Below, one piece after another: positions 8,044 through 16,368 of a stretch of DNA of 18,110 bases (the first letter of the stretch is position 1; every line of letters starts with the position of its first letter). The stretch is from Candidatus Stramentimicrobium fermentans (GTDB taxonomy: Bacteria; Atribacterota; Phoenicimicrobiia; Phoenicimicrobiales; Stramentimicrobiaceae), in NCBI GenBank assembly GCA_012520575.1, contig JAAYOB010000043.1, positions 1 to 18,110 on the forward strand. The letters run 5' to 3'. The position numbers were made by a program, and so were the translations under genes. The notes below the pieces were generated by a model. The model was not told the origin of the DNA and searched no databases. It saw only the letters and a list, made by a program, of their open reading frames with translations.

Positions 8044-10632
8044 TTATAAATGTACCATCTGAAATTGCGACCCTAAGACCGGGTCTTTCCAGACTTCAAT
8101 CCGTACCGGAAAGGCATCCTTTAACAGCGCCAGATGAGTTATGACCAAAATTTTGTCAAAATCATGCTGAATGGCATTGATGGCCTGAATCAATTTTTGC
8201 AATCCCTCTTCATCCTGTGTTCCAAAACCCTCATCGATCACTAAGGTTCGCAGACGTGCACCGGAACGTTGAGTTAATAATTTAGAGAGTGCCAGGCGTA
8301 TAGCAAAATCAATACGGAATGCCTCGCCACCACTGTAAAGCTCATATGGCCTATCTCCCATCTCATCCAGAATCTTAATATCCAGGGTCTCTCTCATCTC
8401 TCCGCTCTGTAGTTCCTTTAAGGACTCCAGACTGATAGTGATAGGTTCATCTGATAACTTAGCCAGAATAGTATTGGCTTCTTCTTCTAATTCAGGAATA
8501 GCATTTTCGATAATCATGGAAGGAATACCGTTTTTACCAAAGGCATTAGTTAATTTGCCATAAATATCTTTCTGATAGGAGAGCCGGCTAACCGTTTTTT
8601 CAATCTCCTTCTGTTCCTGCTCAAATTGCTCAATCTTATCCAGCTTTTCCTGTCCGGCTCCTATCTGTAGTAATAACTGATTCTGCTCTTTTTCTAATCC
8701 CTCTAAAAATTCTTTTTCTTTCGAAACTTCTTGTTTCACGTCAGAAATTCTTGCTATACTCTCCATTAATATTTCCTGGCTTTTTCTTAATTCGTTTATG
8801 CTCTTCTTTTTAATATCATGTTGCTTTGTAATTGCTGTCTTTTCATCATCCAATTTAAGTAATGACTTTTTAGCCTCTAATAATTTGTCTCTTTGTAGCG
8901 GAACTCCTCTTAAATTCCCTAACTCTCTATTAATATTGAGATATTTTTCATCATTATAGACATGTTTTTTTAGAACTGCTTCTATTTCCGACCATTTTTT
9001 CCTCTCAGACAAAGCAAACCGATCTTCTCTAATTTTAACTTGTAAGTTTGTTATGACGGGCTCTAGCTCTTTCATCTGAACATTTGCTTTTTTTACTTCC
9101 TGAGCCAGCAGGTAACAACTGTTGAGCTTATTCTGTACACCATCCTTCTGGACAAGTTCATCATATATTCTCTTGTACTCTTTTCGTAGAACATTTCTCT
9201 CCTGGTTTAATTGTTTAAGCTCATCATTTAATTTCCCGACTTCCTGTCTATTTTTAGCAATATCTTGTCTTAGGGTTATCATTATCTTTTCTTTTTTTGG
9301 TTCATCCAGTGGGGAAGAGCATAAAGGACAGGATTCTTGGGTACCTTTTTCCAGCAGAGAAATCTTCTCCTTATTATCGGTATTCTCTTCTTCTAATCTT
9401 TTTATCTGGTCATTCTTGCTTTCTATCTTTACCCCTAATGCGTTACCCTTTTCTTCGATACTTTCCTTCTTTTTCTGTAAATTATTGAAATTAGCTATTT
9501 GTAATTCTAATTTCTTTATTTCCGACTGCAGTAAGGTGAAAGAGTTCACTTTTTCGGTGAGCTCTTTTTGTTTTTCCTGTTTCTGCCCTAATTCCAATCG
9601 AAGCCGATTTTTAAAGTTTTCTATCCGATTTCCAATCTCCCTTTTTTCCTGTTCTAACTTGCGATACTGTTCCATCGACTGAAGCATCTCCTGGTTTTGC
9701 CGAGCTAATTGGAGATAAATGTCATAATCCGCTAATATCTTATTTTCCTGGGAGATAAACAGCTGACACTCTTTTATATTTTGCCCTATTCTTTCCTGTC
9801 TTTTCTTTAATTCTTGCAATTCTTTCTGTTCGGTAGCAAGTCGTGCGATTAATTCTTCTGCCTGCTGCTTATTAAAATGCAATTGGCTATATTCTTGCTC
9901 CAATTTTTGTAATTTTTCTTTCTTTTCCTGATAAAGTATTCGCTGTTTTTGTTCCTGTTCTTTTATTATCTTAATTTCTACCAACACTGTCTCTTTTTGA
10001 GCAACCTCTATTTGAGTCTGCTCTAGTCTGCTCTGATTGATATTGAGCTCTTTATCTAATTCTCGGAAATGGCGACGAGCTAATATGGAAAGCTCTTCGT
10101 AGCGTGAAAGGCCCAATACTTCAGACAAAATTTGTTTACGTTCTCTGGCGCTTTTCCTGGTAAATTCATCTACTCTGCCTTGCAAAATAAAGGCAGAGTT
10201 AATAAAGGTATCATAGTCCATCCTCAACAACCCATTAATCTTTTGCTGCGTCTGCCTCAGGGAAGGGGTGGATAGAGAAATAAACTCATTCTTCTCAGAA
10301 TCATAGACCATAAATTCTAATTCACTGATACCCCGGCTTTTGACTAAAGAAAACTTCCTGATAACCCGGTAGCGCTCTACCTCTAAATCAAAGACCAAAT
10401 CCACCCACATCTGCTTTTCTCCTACCTTCAACAGACCTCGGTCAGCTTTCCTCTCGGTTTGAGCTTTTCTTCCTTCACCCCATAATGCCCAGGTTAAAGC
10501 ATCGAGCAAGGCTGATTTCCCCTGCCCATTCCCTCCGGAAAGACAGGCAATATTAAACCGGGTAAAATCAAGTGCAGGAACATCTTTTCCATAACTTAAG
10601 AAGTTAGAAACTTGTAAGGTAACCGGAATCAT
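8044..10632 (-). CDS. sbcC: SbcC, ATPase subunit of the SbcCD nuclease (Rad50-like)
   Basis: An 862-residue SMC-like ATPase that partners SbcD to open hairpins and trim DNA ends. Walker A is GGNGQGKS at 33-40, and the Q-loop region is FILQGRVDEF (148-157). Long coiled coils rich in Glu, Lys and Gln occupy about 180-430 and 450-700. Between them is the zinc hook CPLC (Cys435, Cys438), which dimerises through Zn. The C-terminal head carries the signature LYSGGEAFRIDFAIRLALSK and Walker B LVIDEGFGTQD. The length is shorter than E. coli SbcC (about 1050) and close to archaeal Rad50. It overlaps sbcD by 4 bp (ATGA) with a GAGGGG ribosome binding site, indicating translational coupling. Its stop is 8 bp from that of dinB. 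Confidence 0.95.
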   Translation of the reverse strand: MIPVTLQVSNFLSYGKDVPALDFTRFNIACLSGGNGQGKSALLDALTWALWGEGRKAQTERKADRGLLKVGEKQMWVDLVFDLEVERYRVIRKFSLVKSRGISELEFMVYDSEKNEFISLSTPSLRQTQQKINGLLRMDYDTFINSAFILQGRVDEFTRKSARERKQILSEVLGLSRYEELSILARRHFRELDKELNINQSRLEQTQIEVAQKETVLVEIKIIKEQEQKQRILYQEKKEKLQKLEQEYSQLHFNKQQAEELIARLATEQKELQELKKRQERIGQNIKECQLFISQENKILADYDIYLQLARQNQEMLQSMEQYRKLEQEKREIGNRIENFKNRLRLELGQKQEKQKELTEKVNSFTLLQSEIKKLELQIANFNNLQKKKESIEEKGNALGVKIESKNDQIKRLEEENTDNKEKISLLEKGTQESCPLCSSPLDEPKKEKIMITLRQDIAKNRQEVGKLNDELKQLNQERNVLRKEYKRIYDELVQKDGVQNKLNSCYLLAQEVKKANVQMKELEPVITNLQVKIREDRFALSERKKWSEIEAVLKKHVYNDEKYLNINRELGNLRGVPLQRDKLLEAKKSLLKLDDEKTAITKQHDIKKKSINELRKSQEILMESIARISDVKQEVSKEKEFLEGLEKEQNQLLLQIGAGQEKLDKIEQFEQEQKEIEKTVSRLSYQKDIYGKLTNAFGKNGIPSMIIENAIPELEEEANTILAKLSDEPITISLESLKELQSGEMRETLDIKILDEMGDRPYELYSGGEAFRIDFAIRLALSKLLTQRSGARLRTLVIDEGFGTQDEEGLQKLIQAINAIQHDFDKILVITHLALLKDAFPVRIEVWKDPVLGSQFQMVHL

Positions 10633-11879
10633 ATCTCATCCCCTCCTGACGGTACCTCTTCCCGGAATAATTCCTGTTCCAGTTTTTTGGCATAAGAGAT
10701 TAGATCTTTATCCCAGTTCTGCCAGTTCTGTAAATCAATGTATTCTTTTAATGCGGTAAACAGATTCATCTCCTCGGATAAAGTACTTCTCTTAACAGGA
10801 GCTTTCCTAGTGGTATTTCTGCTGATGCCGGTCACTAAAAATGCCTCTTTGAGTGCTTCTCGGACCTTTTTAAAATCTATTTCTTGATTTGCTTCATCAG
10901 TTGCCTCATAACTAACACGCACTAATGCAGCTTTTAAATCATATTCTTCTATTTCTGCTATAAAATCCTTGGTTGGTTCAGCACTATCTTCGATTTTTAT
11001 ATTTAAGGTCAACATTTTCCGCACAGGAAGCGGAATAAATTCGTAGTCAACTCTACCCTTTTCATCTATACTTCCTATACAAAACCCCTTTTCATCTTTC
11101 TCCTCGCCAAAATTGATGCGGTCCATACTGCCGCAATATACTATGGGCAGTTTATGATCAGAATTCAAATTCTGATAGCGATGAATGTGCCCTAAAGCAA
11201 TGTAGTCAAAGGGAGAATCCTTTAAGAATTGTAAGGATAGGGAGGGGTCACTGCCCAATAAAGCATAGGTTTCTGAACCGGAGAAGACCGCCTCAGCTAC
11301 TGTTAAATGTCCGGCCAATATTTTAGGAATGTTTTCTTCTAACTGTTCGGTCAATTCAGTTATTCTTTTCATGAGCCGTAGCTGTATCTTTTTATTAACA
11401 GCATGTAAATCACTATCTCGATATTCTTCTTTTAGTAGATACTGGTTCTTAGTAGGCCAGGGAATTCCCACTACTTGAATATTTCCTTTCTTAGTGGGCA
11501 AAGTAAGAAGAGTGGGCTCAGTCACCACATAGATATTGGCAACATTGAGCGTTTGAAAGATGTCTAAAGAGCTGGCTCTACCGAAAGCTAAAGGATTGTC
11601 GTGATTGCCATTGATTAAAACAGTTGGAATACCCGCCTGGCTTAATCGGTAAAGTTGTTGGGCAAATTCTCGCTGATGGGTAGGATTGGGATTGTTATTC
11701 TTATAGGCATCACCGCAAAAGAGTGCAAAATCAACTTTTTCTTCCAAGCCAATATCTACTGCAGCAGTAAGTGTTTTGATAAAATCATTTAAGCGGGAAT
11801 GCAGTCCGGTCTGACTGTCAATATGTCCATAATTTTCTACACCTAAATGGATATCGGCAAAGTGCATAAATTTAATCAT
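10629..11879 (-). CDS. sbcD: SbcD, nuclease subunit of SbcCD (Mre11-like)
   Basis: A 416-residue Mn-dependent 3'-5' exonuclease/endonuclease. Metallophosphoesterase motifs appear in order: ADIHLG (Asp9, His11), CGDAYKN (Asp57), INGNHDNP (Asn92, His93), GHLT (His191) and GHIH (His231, His233). The C-terminal third is the capping and SbcC-binding region. I start it at the ATG at 11879 because that gives the normal [13 protein letters not shown] beginning. It overlaps the end of xth by 8 bp, with no strong ribosome binding site. A TTG at 11915 would add 12 residues unlike the family. Its stop overlaps the sbcC start. The tight packing points to one operon: deoC-xth-sbcD-sbcC. Confidence 0.93.
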
Positions 11880-12660
11880 AGTGTGAACTTGTGCCTGACT
11901 CAAAAGAGAGGTCAATACCTACCGGACAATGGTCAGAGCCGGCAACTTCCGATTGAATAAAGGCGGATTTTAAATTATCTTTTAAATTTTCACTGATAAA
12001 GAAGTAGTCAATTCTCCAGCCGACATTGCGTTCTCTGGCTCTGGTCTTATAATCCCACCAGCTGTAATTATCCGGTTCTGAGTTAAAATATCGAAAAGTG
12101 TCGATAAAGCCCGCTTCAATTAAGCGGTCAATCCATTCTCGTTCGATAGGGAGAAAGCCGGAAGTTTTTTCATTTTCTTTTGCCCGAGCTAAATCAATCT
12201 CTTTGTGAGCAGTATTAACATCACCACAAATAATAACCCGTCTTCCTTCTTTCAGTAAACTGACTGCCATCTTTAAAAAAGTTTCGTAAAAATCGAGTTT
12301 ATACTGTAGTCTTTCCTGAGAGGCTTTACCATTGGGAAAATAGATATTGAATAAGACAAATTCGGGAAAATCTAACCGCATAAAACGCCCTTCGACGTCA
12401 AAGCGTGGTATCCCCATCGCATCTGAAAAACCAATTGGCTTTTGTTTGGTCCAAAGGGCTACCCCGCTATAGCCTTTTTTTTCAGCATGGCTAAAAAAAC
12501 TATAACAGTTCGGTCTGTTGATAAGCTCATCCGGGATCTGCTCTGGCTGCAATTTGGTCTCCTGAATACAATAAATATCCGCCGGCTGCCCCAGCCATAT
12601 GTTAAAATTCTTGTTATAAATGGCTCTTAGGCCATTTACATTCCACGACAAAAGCCTCAT
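11872..12660 (-). CDS. xth: Exodeoxyribonuclease III / AP endonuclease
   Basis: A 262-residue endonuclease/exonuclease/phosphatase-fold enzyme that incises abasic sites and removes 3'-blocking groups in base excision repair. The start [13 protein letters not shown] contains Asn7. IQETKL gives the metal ligand Glu34. Tyr107 lies in [15 protein letters not shown] gives Asp147 and Asn149. WRIDYFFIS and GSDHCPVG give the catalytic Asp243-His244 pair. I start it at the ATG at 12660, which matches the family N-terminus and lies 10 bp after the deoC stop with GAGAG upstream. An in-frame ATG at 12684 overlapping deoC, and a start further up, would add residues absent from the family. The gene overlaps sbcD by 8 bp. 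Confidence 0.94.
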
Positions 12661-12670
12661 TTTAAAACTC

Positions 12671-13390
12671 TCATTTTTTATCATCGGGTAAATTAGCATA
12701 AGGACTTCCATTAACTATCTGCACTCCCTGACTGGCACCAATTCGGGTAGCACCTGCCTCGACCATCTTTACTGCAGTCTGGTAGTCTCTAATGCCGCCA
12801 GCAGCCTTAATTCCCAAGTACTCCCCTACCACACCTCGCATTAATTCTATATCAGCAGTGGTAGCACCTCCTTTATCAAAACCGGTGGAGGTTTTCACAA
12901 AATGTGCCCCGGCTTGCAACGCTAATTGACAGCCTACCATCTTTTCTTCGTCTGTTAAGAGGCAGTTTTCTAAAATCACTTTGCAGATTAATCCTGATGC
13001 TGATTTTACAACTACCTCTATATCTTTCCTGACCTTTTTATAATCTTTATCTTTTAAAGCGGAAACATTGATTACCATATCAATCTCCTGTGCTCCCTCT
13101 TTGATGGCCTCTTCTGTCTCATAGGCTTTCACCCTGGATAGGGTTACACCTAAGGGGAAACCAATCACAGTACAAATTTTAACATTTGAACCGCTTAAAA
13201 ATGATTTGGCTAAAGGGACAAAATATGGATTTATACATACTGAATAAAAATGGTAATGCAAAGCCTCCCGGCATAGTTTCTCGATCTGTACACCGGTCGC
13301 TTCAGGACGCAGTGCAGTGTGGTCGATTAATCTGGCAACATTTGTTTTAGCTAGTATCTGAGCAGTCTCAGTAGTAATTATTTCAGGCAT
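12671..13390 (-). CDS. deoC: Deoxyribose-phosphate aldolase
   Basis: A 239-residue class I aldolase that splits 2-deoxyribose-5-phosphate into glyceraldehyde-3-phosphate and acetaldehyde. This lets deoxynucleoside sugar enter glycolysis. The TIM-barrel motifs are all present: [12 protein letters not shown] (21-32), the IGFPLG loop (76-81), and Asp104 in EIDMVIN. Lys166 in HFVKTSTGF forms the Schiff base, and Lys195 in [10 protein letters not shown] assists proton relay. It is the first gene of the leftward repair operon, with xth starting 10 bp after its stop. The ATG at 13390 has a GGGG-type ribosome binding site at rather long spacing. No deoD, deoB, cdd or other deo genes are nearby, which is unlike the usual nucleoside-catabolic setting. 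Confidence 0.95.
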
Positions 13391-13449: not shown

Positions 13450-14076
13450 TTATTTTGGTCTTAACTCAGCCGCTAGCGGCTTTGCCGACTCTTTATCTAT
13501 ATGTAGCTTTATCTTATAATTACTATAGGCGAAATTTTTCCTAATAACCTCTTTATTATTTCCAGAAAAGATGCTCTCCATTTTACACTTTCCTTTACAA
13601 TTACACCTTAACAACTTTCCATCTTCTGAATGGACCGCTATATGGAGAGTATAGGGAGAAACAAATTTGATTTTTTTTGTAATCATAGGCGTGCTGTATG
13701 CTACTAATCGATGAATAATTCTGTAAAACAGGTCTTCTCCGATTTTTTTTCTAAAGGCGGAAAAGGTAGAGTGTGCGGGGGTTCTGGTAAAGTGATGAAA
13801 TCCACATAAAACACAATACCTGGTATTATAGCGCAAAGCTTCAGCTAGTTGACGATTTGATTCTGCTTCGCCTAAATACAAGAGTAGCTGAGCTTTAAAA
13901 AGGGAGAGCGGGCTATAGATAAGACCTTTATTATCGGGGTAAAAGTCTTTGACTAAAGGGCTGATAAAAGACCACTCGATTGATTCAAAAATAAGCTTTA
14001 GTGGATCATTCTTTTTTATCTTTTGGTAGGCTTCATAAGTAGAAAATGACAATTGTTGTCTTTTCGATTTTTTCAT
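13450..14076 (-). pseudogene. Truncated, catalytically dead transposase (IS5/IS1182-like N-terminal region)
   Basis: A 208-residue open frame resembling the N-terminal DUF772 half of IS5/IS1182-type DDE transposases. Blocks include NKGLIYSPLSLFKAQLLLYLGE, SNRQLAEALRYN, LCGFHHFTRTPAHSTFSAFRKKIGED and a CNCKGKC cluster (Cys158, 160, 164). The frame stops after HIDKESAKPLAAELRPK, where full transposases (about 400-500 residues) continue into the catalytic core. The first catalytic Asp, expected in a DST-H-IAVHS type motif, is replaced by Tyr142 in PYTLHIAVHS. It cannot transpose. The frame is nevertheless intact, with no internal stop. No terminal inverted repeats or target duplication are evident. 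I take the ATG at 14076; a TTG at 14094 is possible. The ribosome binding site is weak. Confidence 0.75.
13468..13481. repeat. Perfect 14-bp GC-rich palindrome at the end of the transposase relic
   Basis: AGCCGCTAGCGGCT reads the same on both strands and is conspicuously GC-rich in an AT-rich setting. It falls in the last codons of the relic, encoding Pro-Leu-Ala-Ala. An adjacent CGGCAAAGCCG on the minus strand offers an alternative hairpin. No T-run follows directly, so it is not a typical terminator. Confidence 0.4.
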
Positions 14077-14163
14077 TAAGTCCAATTTCCACAAAATTTT
14101 CCCTATTGGATAGGTATTTAAAAGGGAATAATCTCTAAATTAAATAGTATTGTTCATATTTAT

Positions 14164-15531
14164 TTATAATCTTTTATATTTCTTTCTTAAAAAAGTTGGT
14201 ATATTCAGATTCTCTCTATCCCTATATTTTTTAGTCATACCTAAATCATCTTCTTCTACGGGCATATAGACATCGAGGGTTACTTCTTTTTCCGCTTCTG
14301 CTCCTTTTTTTGTTAGAATTGTTCTTTCGGTTAATCTATCTGAATTATAAGTGGGAATGCTTTCCTTTCTATTATCCTCTTGCTCCAGTTTTTCCTGATA
14401 TTCCGGTACAATGATATCCTTATCACGTTTAGTAGCAATAACGGTAACCATTATTTCGTCCTGCATATTCTCAGAAATGATGGCGCCGAAAACAACATTA
14501 GCCTCCCTGCCCGCTGCTTTTGAAATCAGGTCGACAATCTCATTTATCTCATAGAGACTCATATCGAGTCCCCCAGTTACACTTACCAAGATGGAGCTAG
14601 AACCCTTGATAGATACCTCGAGCAAGGGACTGGAAATAGCCGCCTCGGCTGCTGTAGCAGCTTTATTATTTCCCCGTCCTATTCCAATACCTACTAAGGC
14701 AAATCCAGCATCTTGAATTACTGCTTTCACGTCTGCCAAATCAAGGTTGATTAATCCCGGAGTAGTAATCAGATCAGCAATCGCCTGAACTGATTGCCGT
14801 AAGACCCGGTCGGTGATATCAAAGGCATCCCGAACCGAGGTATCCTTGCTAATCATAGTGAGTAAGCGGTCATTAGAAATAGTAATTAGTGCGTCAACCT
14901 GCTTTTTAAGATTTTCTATCCCCTGCTCCGCCTGTACCATTCTTTTTTTACCTTCAAAACTGAAGGGGCGTGTTACCACTCCGATAGTAAGTGCTCCTTC
15001 CCTTTTAGCTATTTCAGCTACCACCGGGGCAGCACCACTTCCGGTACCTCCACCCATACCGGCGGTTATAAAAACAATATCTGAACCTTCCAACGCCTTC
15101 GCGATTGCACTCCTATCCTCTTCGGCTGCTTTTTTACCAACTTCCGGGTCACCACCGGCACCCAACCCCTTGGTAGTTAATTTACCAATCTGCACTTTCT
15201 GGGTAGCTTGAGATAGAGAAAGTGTTTGTAGATCGGTATTAATGGCTACCATTTCTAAACCGTTAATCCGGTGGCTGGCTATCTCCTCAATAGCATTATT
15301 TCCACTGCCCCCAATGCCAATCACCTTGATGTTAACAAAGCTATCAACTTTTTTTTGAGCCGGCAAAGGCACCCTTTCTTTTATCCGGTCAAAGATTAGA
15401 CTGCTATCATCGGGTCTGGAATAAGGAGATGGATCTGGTTTTTTATCCAAACCTTGGGAAGTATCCCTGATTAATTCTTGTTTATAGTCTATTATCCTGG
15501 TAAATCCGCGCGCTAATTTTTTCTTTTTCAA
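14164..15531 (-). CDS. ftsZ: FtsZ, tubulin-like cell division GTPase, N-terminally extended
   Basis: A 455-residue FtsZ that polymerises into the cytokinetic ring. The GTPase core begins with IKVIGIGGSGNNA at 68. The tubulin signature GGGTGSG is at 160-166, and NDRLL (220-224) follows. The T7 synergy loop NLDLADV carries Asp264 and Asp267. After a charged linker the C-terminal conserved peptide NIPTFLRKK is at 443-451, so interaction with an anchor such as FtsA or ZipA-like proteins is expected. About 55 residues precede the point where E. coli FtsZ begins its core, and they are basic, then Pro/Ser/Asp-rich. The start is TTG at 15531 with AGAGGTGAT (15537-15545) just upstream. This places it inside the last 50 bp of parA, so translation is probably coupled. 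No ftsA or dcw gene is adjacent. Confidence 0.95.
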   Translation of the reverse strand: MKKKKLARGFTRIIDYKQELIRDTSQGLDKKPDPSPYSRPDDSSLIFDRIKERVPLPAQKKVDSFVNIKVIGIGGSGNNAIEEIASHRINGLEMVAINTDLQTLSLSQATQKVQIGKLTTKGLGAGGDPEVGKKAAEEDRSAIAKALEGSDIVFITAGMGGGTGSGAAPVVAEIAKREGALTIGVVTRPFSFEGKKRMVQAEQGIENLKKQVDALITISNDRLLTMISKDTSVRDAFDITDRVLRQSVQAIADLITTPGLINLDLADVKAVIQDAGFALVGIGIGRGNNKAATAAEAAISSPLLEVSIKGSSSILVSVTGGLDMSLYEINEIVDLISKAAGREANVVFGAIISENMQDEIMVTVIATKRDKDIIVPEYQEKLEQEDNRKESIPTYNSDRLTERTILTKKGAEAEKEVTLDVYMPVEEDDLGMTKKYRDRENLNIPTFLRKKYKRL

Positions 15532-16303
15532 AGGAAATCACCTCTTCGGCAAGTTCTATATAATCTTCAGCTCCATGAGATTTCGGACGATAGTAAATAA
15601 TGGGAACCCCTTGGCTGGAAGCTTCCACCAATGCAATATTTTTCCTTATTATAGTCTTAAAGACTCTCTCTTTAAAATAATTTCTAGTTTCCTCAATAAC
15701 TTCTTTGGCAATATTACTCCTGGTATCTGCTATGGTAACTAAAACGTATATGTCTAAATAATGGTGTAAGTTTTGGTGTACAATTTTAATGGTCTCCATA
15801 AATTCCTCTATACCACGCAAGGCGAAATAATGGGGCTGCATAGGGATAATAACTTCATAGGAAGCTTTTAGAGCATTAATAGTCAGAATGCCCAATGAGG
15901 GCGGACAATCGATGATAATATAGTCAAATCTAATTTGGCAATTTTGAATACCGTTATTTAAAAAATCTTCTCTACCGATCTGGTCGATTAGTTTATATTC
16001 CGCACTGGCAAAATCAATATTGCTAGGCGCCAAATAGAGGTTGCCATTAGAAAATTTTTCTATTTTAATGGCCACATCTTCCATATTCAGTTTATTGGGA
16101 GAACGGACTGGCTCCATAACATTGAGCATAGTTCTTTCCAGCTCATTAGGTTCTATTCCCAAACCAATAGTGGTATGTCCCTGGGGATCCATATCAATAA
16201 GAAGTACCTTTTTCCCAAAATCAGCTAAGCAAGTTCCCAAATTAATAGCGGTCGTGGTTTTGGCGACTCCGCCCTTTTGGTTGGCAATGGAAATAATTCG
16301 CAA
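15482..16303 (-). CDS. parA: ParA/Soj-family P-loop ATPase
   Basis: A 273-residue chromosomal-type ParA without an N-terminal DNA-binding domain. The deviant Walker A is KGGVAKTTT (10-18) with signature Lys10 and Lys15. Walker A' is LLIDMDPQGH (35-43), and Walker B/switch II is YIIIDCPPSLGILT. The family's ATP-dependent dimers bind nonspecific DNA and position cargo, normally with a ParB partner; MinD relatives use the membrane instead. The C-terminus has no obvious amphipathic membrane helix. The start is TTG at 16303, chosen because AGGAGGT (16311-16317) lies 7 nt upstream and the protein then begins MRIISIANQKGG, as in homologues. No parB is in the window. The partner gene is ftsZ, which overlaps it by 50 bp. 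Palindromes upstream may be regulatory. Confidence 0.92.
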   Translation of the reverse strand: MRIISIANQKGGVAKTTTAINLGTCLADFGKKVLLIDMDPQGHTTIGLGIEPNELERTMLNVMEPVRSPNKLNMEDVAIKIEKFSNGNLYLAPSNIDFASAEYKLIDQIGREDFLNNGIQNCQIRFDYIIIDCPPSLGILTINALKASYEVIIPMQPHYFALRGIEEFMETIKIVHQNLHHYLDIYVLVTIADTRSNIAKEVIEETRNYFKERVFKTIIRKNIALVEASSQGVPIIYYRPKSHGAEDYIELAEEVISFEKEKISARIYQDNRL

Positions 16304-16368
16304 CTAGTGCACCTCCTGTTTTTAACGCACAAGATATCAAAACAGTCTTTTTATTGCTAATCTTTGGT

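Follow-up and report, generated by a model that had tools for sequence, protein, structure and literature searches.

The analyzed window, a stretch of 18,110 nucleotides, spans the entire contig C29; the genome to which it belongs is 1.58 Mb in size and 98% complete. All features of the window described here lie on the minus strand. The upstream gene, parA2 (positions 15,482–16,303), has a TTG start preceded by the Shine–Dalgarno sequence AGGAGGTG (16,310–16,317), and encodes a protein of 273 aa, assigned to the ParA/Soj-fold P-loop ATPases by its AAA_31 match, its position in the tree, and the AF2 model. The gene ftsZ2 (14,164–15,531) starts with the TTG at 15,529–15,531 and encodes a second FtsZ of 455 aa (TIGR00065 and tree). 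The two reading frames share 50 nt (15,482–15,531), and both the start codon of ftsZ2 and its Shine–Dalgarno sequence, GAGGTGAT (15,537–15,544), are located within parA2, as stated in the initial annotation of this DNA. The same annotation described the genes as fused; they are two overlapping ORFs, not a fusion. Scans for promoters and terminators yielded nothing above the chance level.

FtsZ2 consists of an N-terminal extension of 24 residues (MKKKKLARGFTRIIDYKQELIRDT; 15,460–15,531), delineated by column conservation, profile search, and motif tests; a variable linker; the GTPase core at approximately residues 65–370 (14,422–15,339; Tubulin 67–227 and FtsZ_C 276–367); another linker; and a C-terminal conserved peptide of the FtsA-binding type, IPTFLR, at residues 444–449 (14,185–14,202). 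The core contains the T7 catalytic loop NLDLAD at residues 262–267 (14,731–14,748). Downstream of ftsZ2, an intact ORF of 214 aa (13,450–14,094) resembles the N-terminal part of IS1182/DUF772 transposases, lacks the catalytic part, and looks domesticated; such an ORF follows ftsZ2 in 17 of the 18 genomes of families f1 and f2 that have downstream sequence. The sbcC–sbcD–exonuclease III–deoC run further downstream (8,044–13,390), with small overlaps between genes, is kept as a block in family f1 only.

Across the phylum Atribacterota, 50 species genomes were surveyed, and 41 of them proved to carry the overlapping pair, which is thus not confined to a single genome. In three other genomes (G006, G009, and G012), a contig end truncates FtsZ2 or ParA2; of the six remaining ones, four are 63–75% complete, one (G035) is 91% complete, and one (G026) has minC–minD–minE. 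The overlap length varies from 32 to 56 nt, the Shine–Dalgarno sequence of ftsZ2 is the same in 41/41 genomes, and its TTG start is retained in 40/41. This recurrence in 41 species genomes, together with the invariant Shine–Dalgarno sequence, exceeds chance. An assembly artefact was considered as a source of the overlap and rejected, since 41 independent genomes carry it. The genes outside the pair differ between families f1–f2 and f3–f6; thus, the pair is the sole unit kept in both halves of the phylum. No ParA was found upstream of the non-Atribacterota FtsZ loci examined.

FtsZ2 scores 405.2 bits against the TIGR00065 ftsZ equivalog, above the cut-off of 295.2. Its T7 loop conforms to NxDxxD and is invariant across 29 sequences, and its C-terminal peptide (IPxFLR) has invariant P445, F447, L448, and R449. 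The same peptide is found in FtsZ1, the other FtsZ of this genome, which is encoded on contig C28 in the canonical order murG–murC–murB–ftsQ–ftsA–ftsZ. Given this canonical ftsA–ftsZ locus, the ftsZ of the window is not the only one in the genome but a paralogue; among the observations that the initial annotation itself had counted against its proposal, the existence of such a locus is the only one that was made. In the tree, FtsZ1 (98/95) and FtsZ2 (98/99) each form a monophyletic clade, and both clades track the families; therefore, the duplication is older than families f1–f6. FtsZ2, as well as ParA2, is a well-supported, vertically inherited clade, and the gene unit, the paralogy of FtsZ2, and the phylum-wide conservation form a solid basis. 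In G026, the only genome with minCDE (L238:141–1892 and L241:2027–3163), the plain FtsZ groups with neither FtsZ1 nor FtsZ2 and ends without IPxFLR; the placement of this genome in the phylum is to be taken with caution. A DivIVA gene (L008:7686–8282) lies close to the dcw ftsZ1 region; its product is a possible pole marker where Min is absent.

ParA2 matches AAA_31 with 198.9 bits (8.7e-59) and has the deviant Walker A motif of the ParA superfamily (KGGxxKT), including the signature Lys, as well as the catalytic Asp; K10, K15, D37, and D39 are invariant. The AF2 model of the monomer (pLDDT 83) has its best PDB matches among Soj/ParA structures, with TM of 0.8–0.9. In the tree, a long stem leads to a single clade of ParA2 proteins (100/100), which is separate from MinD and from the parB-linked Soj of the same genomes. 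Grouping with ParB-partnered Soj, named in the initial annotation as evidence against its proposal, was thus not observed, and the explanation of the orphan ParA2 as a misplaced Soj was rejected on the same grounds. The placement of the clade among the remaining ParAs is weakly supported. Its nearest neighbors, again with weak support, are ParAs without a detected ParB from two genomes of family f83 (L250:1498–2271, L251:1489–2268), which are not located beside ftsZ. ParA2 scores 68.9 bits against the MinD profile TIGR01968, below the cut-off of 212.9, and its match to MipZ (PF09140) is limited to the P-loop region at residues 3–46 and is not full-length. Compared with the membrane-targeting helix of MinD, the C-terminal helix of ParA2 (residues 243–272) in the AF2 model is longer and charged. 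There is no parB beside parA2 in the window; the only ParB_N match of the genome adjoins soj at the canonical soj–parB locus on contig C36.

Mapping the numbering of Myxococcus xanthus ParA onto ParA2 via Motif 2 residues, we compared 38 ParA2 sequences. The hydrophobic pocket for ParB is kept (L137, I139, I/V142, I/L/M174, and L179). The pocket rim has clade-specific changes fixed in 38/38 sequences, V116 to Y103, Y81 to L60, E82 to N61, and E117 to K/R104; the ParB arginine is contacted by four residues of ParA, and the last three changes fall on three of these. We read the altered rim as a pocket retargeted to avoid cross-talk with Soj–ParB; a loss of the ParB mode would be an equally possible meaning. 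The DNA-binding Arg (R238 in M. xanthus) is replaced by Ala, Ser, or Thr, so nucleoid binding by ParA2 is not assured; R195 and R/H220–K/R221 are retained.

In the 24-residue extension of FtsZ2, 15 columns are invariant (11 distinct sequences). The tail is ParB-like over residues 1–14, and its conservation continues through residue 24. The first 14 residues of FtsZ2 align from Met to Met, without gaps, with the tail of Atribacterota ParB (MKKKKLARGFTRII and MAKKGLGKGLESII, respectively). In M. xanthus ParB, L11, L15, L18, and I19 bind ParA, and R13 is needed for activation (PMC12462528); the corresponding residues of FtsZ2 in families f1–f2 are L6, F10, I13, I14, and R8. Hence, of the five determinants (four hydrophobic residues and a central Arg or Lys), all five are seen in f1–f2, with Phe at the L15 position, and four in f3–f6, where position 13 is Arg, Lys, or Gly and not hydrophobic. 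The motif in its strict form, as published in PMC12704722, is (L/F/I)G[KR]G(L/F/I); it does not match FtsZ2, which has Ala, Val, Lys, or Glu instead of Gly at position 7.

The resemblance was assessed in several ways. With the motif as a regular expression near the N-terminus, all 29 other matches among 963 other ORFs are ParBs by sequence. Of 15 ParBs from outside the phylum, 13 have the motif as well. With a score built from ParBs, none of 930 other N-termini reaches the FtsZ2 median, although, owing to the narrow ParB set, the FtsZ2 scores themselves are below zero. The shuffle test gives p of about 0.0016, and hhalign aligns the tail with ParB in register from Met1 (E 0.0014); all these statistics were run after the motif had been noticed. 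A tail profile searched against whole genomes matched FtsZ2 in the 41 pair-bearing genomes (E below 1e-13). The one other strong match is a GGDEF/HD-GYP protein of G010 (L278:5225–6625), with a diverged copy; having been fused once to another protein, the tail behaves as a portable module. Among the matches listed from 291 genomes, about 240 of them outside the phylum, no non-Atribacterota FtsZ aligned from residue 1. The 24-residue tail by itself had no matches in the PDB. The tail is modelled as disordered, as would be expected of ParB-type tails.

The extension has been read differently by Katayama et al. (2020; PMC7736352), who described two FtsZ in Atribacteria and predicted a membrane helix in RT761 and other Atribacteria. 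Accordingly, the tail might be a membrane-binding amphipathic helix, with FtsZ2 acting independently of FtsA on an extra intracytoplasmic membrane around the nucleoid, and with ParA2 having a regulatory role that involves no contact with the tail. The hydrophobic moment of the window tail is indeed high (0.80 over 11 aa, 0.61 over 18 aa), the tail in f1–f2 is amphipathic enough for membrane binding, and SepF is absent from 50/50 genomes, which leaves few anchors. However, in f3–f6 the tail is poorly hydrophobic (mean of 0.09 over 18 aa vs. 0.6–0.7 for FtsA tails), the model favors disorder, and FtsZ2 retains the FtsA-type C-terminal peptide. A membrane helix also accounts neither for the coupling to parA nor for the ParB-like register and the charged residues that are invariant (R8, D15, E19, R22, and D23); we regard it as unlikely, while still giving it some weight.

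The source genome has no detectable MinC and no MinD above the cut-off; its remaining AAA_31 matches look like Mrp/NifH-type proteins. The initial annotation listed ftsA, parB, and min genes as missing, and this is correct for the neighborhood and, as far as the above searches go, for Min in the entire genome; genome-wide, ftsA is present on C28, and parB, on C36. Such genome-wide statements are based on searches of the genomes and on the ORFs of the retrieved loci. Among the 50 genomes, MinC, MinD, and MinE occur in G026 only, with a single plain FtsZ and no ParA2. Weak, partial MinC_C matches (20–28 bits) are seen in other families, two of them passing the cut-off only after summation of neighboring matches in the frame. 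Min genes are unlikely to have been overlooked due to incompleteness: among the 22 genomes with a completeness of 90% or more and a contamination of 5% or less, none has a MinD scoring above the cut-off. The association between Min and the pair is not significant (Fisher test, p 0.12), since Min is present in just one genome and the correlation reflects one lineage.

These observations make a partnership of ParA2 and FtsZ2 very likely. We propose, with a probability of about one half, that FtsZ2 is both the partner and the cargo of ParA2 and carries its own candidate ATPase-activating peptide, in a ParA-type positioning of division that replaces Min. In this scheme, the two proteins would be produced together through overlapping translation, ParA2 serving as a Soj-fold ATPase without a ParB of its own, in a module specific to the phylum. 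The disordered FtsZ2 tail would bind the ParA2 dimer in the manner of the ParB N-terminal tail on Soj, and would thereby stimulate ATP hydrolysis. FtsZ2 polymers, being cargo and activator at once, would be positioned by ParA2, probably over the nucleoid, and FtsZ2 may then recruit FtsZ1–FtsA or co-assemble with it, doing the job of MinCDE. The best-supported, if unproven, reading is that of the tail as an activating peptide similar to that of ParB, and of the pair as the determinant of the division site instead of Min. In its boldest version, plausible at somewhat less than even odds, a ParA ATPase would have FtsZ itself as its direct cargo and activator; a ParB-like tail would have been gained by a duplicated FtsZ, and the resulting two-protein system would have replaced MinCDE throughout the phylum.

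Instead of positioning FtsZ2 as cargo, ParA2 could be an inhibitor similar to MipZ or MinD, its gradient blocking FtsZ1, FtsZ2, or both away from midcell, and the tail being a mere docking site. MipZ, a ParA-family inhibitor of FtsZ, is a precedent, and the absence of MinCD from pair-bearing genomes fits such a role. Still, ParA2 falls outside both families by profile and is separate from MinD in the tree; besides, MipZ depends on ParB, and no parB adjoins parA2. All this makes an inhibitor quite unlikely. Even less probable is FtsZ2 having no role in division and forming a separate cytoskeletal or partition device, acting on the nucleoid or inner membrane similarly to TubZ or PadC, with all cytokinesis left to FtsZ1–FtsA: the canonical dcw locus, the long divergence since the duplication, and the fact that ParA partners usually move cargo would be in line with it, whereas the score above the FtsZ equivalog cut-off, the preserved T7 loop and IPxFLR peptide, and the lack of Min where the pair is present are not. 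Finally, overlapping genes can be retained since separating them is disruptive, but simple operon inertia with no direct functional link is highly improbable given that the pair stayed while every other neighbor changed between family groups, that both genes co-occur throughout the phylum, and that FtsZ2 carries a ParB-like peptide.

The initial proposal of FtsZ positioning by a coupled ParA is thus partly retained: the conserved pair, the non-Soj ParA, and the lack of detected Min support it, while the sole ftsZ, the absent ftsA and parB, and the fusion are to be dropped. The functional link formerly relied on gene order alone; the ParB-like extension of FtsZ2 now suggests a specific, testable mechanism. 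How midcell is found in bacteria without Min, Noc, or MipZ is an open question for most phyla, and a conserved ParA–FtsZ unit in which FtsZ bears a candidate activating peptide opens it to direct testing with two small proteins. If the proposed scheme is true, it is ParA that places the division ring itself, a task usually performed by Min, and the Atribacterota extension, which previous work interpreted as a putative membrane anchor, has an alternative reading. The cultured member of this phylum is reported to surround its nucleoid with a membrane.

The second FtsZ and its extension were known before. In Atribacter laminatus RT761, the FtsZ encoded away from ftsA has an N-terminal extension, as it has in the genome studied here, and both FtsZ of RT761 are expressed; the main text of that paper says nothing of a coupling to ParA, of missing Min, or of a ParB-like motif (PMC7736352). 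Two FtsZ also occur in Synergistetes, Bipolaricaulota, Armatimonadetes, and Aquificae (PMC8178401). In the openly accessible journal literature, we found no report of ParA coupling, lack of Min, or ParB resemblance for Atribacterota FtsZ.

Chromosomal ParA(Soj)–ParB systems (PMC12462528) share with the pair the ParA2 fold and the hydrophobic peptide pocket, and have a partner with a similar N-terminal tail, L-x-R/K-G-L/F-x-x-I-I; they differ in that ParA2 forms a separate clade with an altered arginine pocket and DNA-binding Arg, and that the pair has no ParB domains, CTPase, or parS. PadC of M. xanthus (described in PMC12704722) associates with the cytoskeleton and, as proposed for FtsZ2, binds ParA through a motif of the ParB type; its fold, however, is that of a ParB CTPase, and it brings ParA to bactofilins instead of FtsZ. 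The MinCDE system serves site selection, which is the likely role of the pair as well; its components were not detected in the pair-bearing genomes and are present in G026, which has no pair. MipZ of Caulobacter is, as proposed for ParA2, a ParA-superfamily ATPase acting on FtsZ; however, it belongs to another family by profile, has ParB as its partner, and is encoded apart from ftsZ. No pomX or pomY was found beside parA2, its neighbors being ftsZ2 and unrelated genes. Nevertheless, the PomXYZ system of M. xanthus (PMC7993993) resembles our proposal in that an ATPase of the ParA/MinD family positively positions FtsZ; there, the activators PomX and PomY are separate from FtsZ, while here the candidate peptide resides on a second FtsZ, in a two-gene module.
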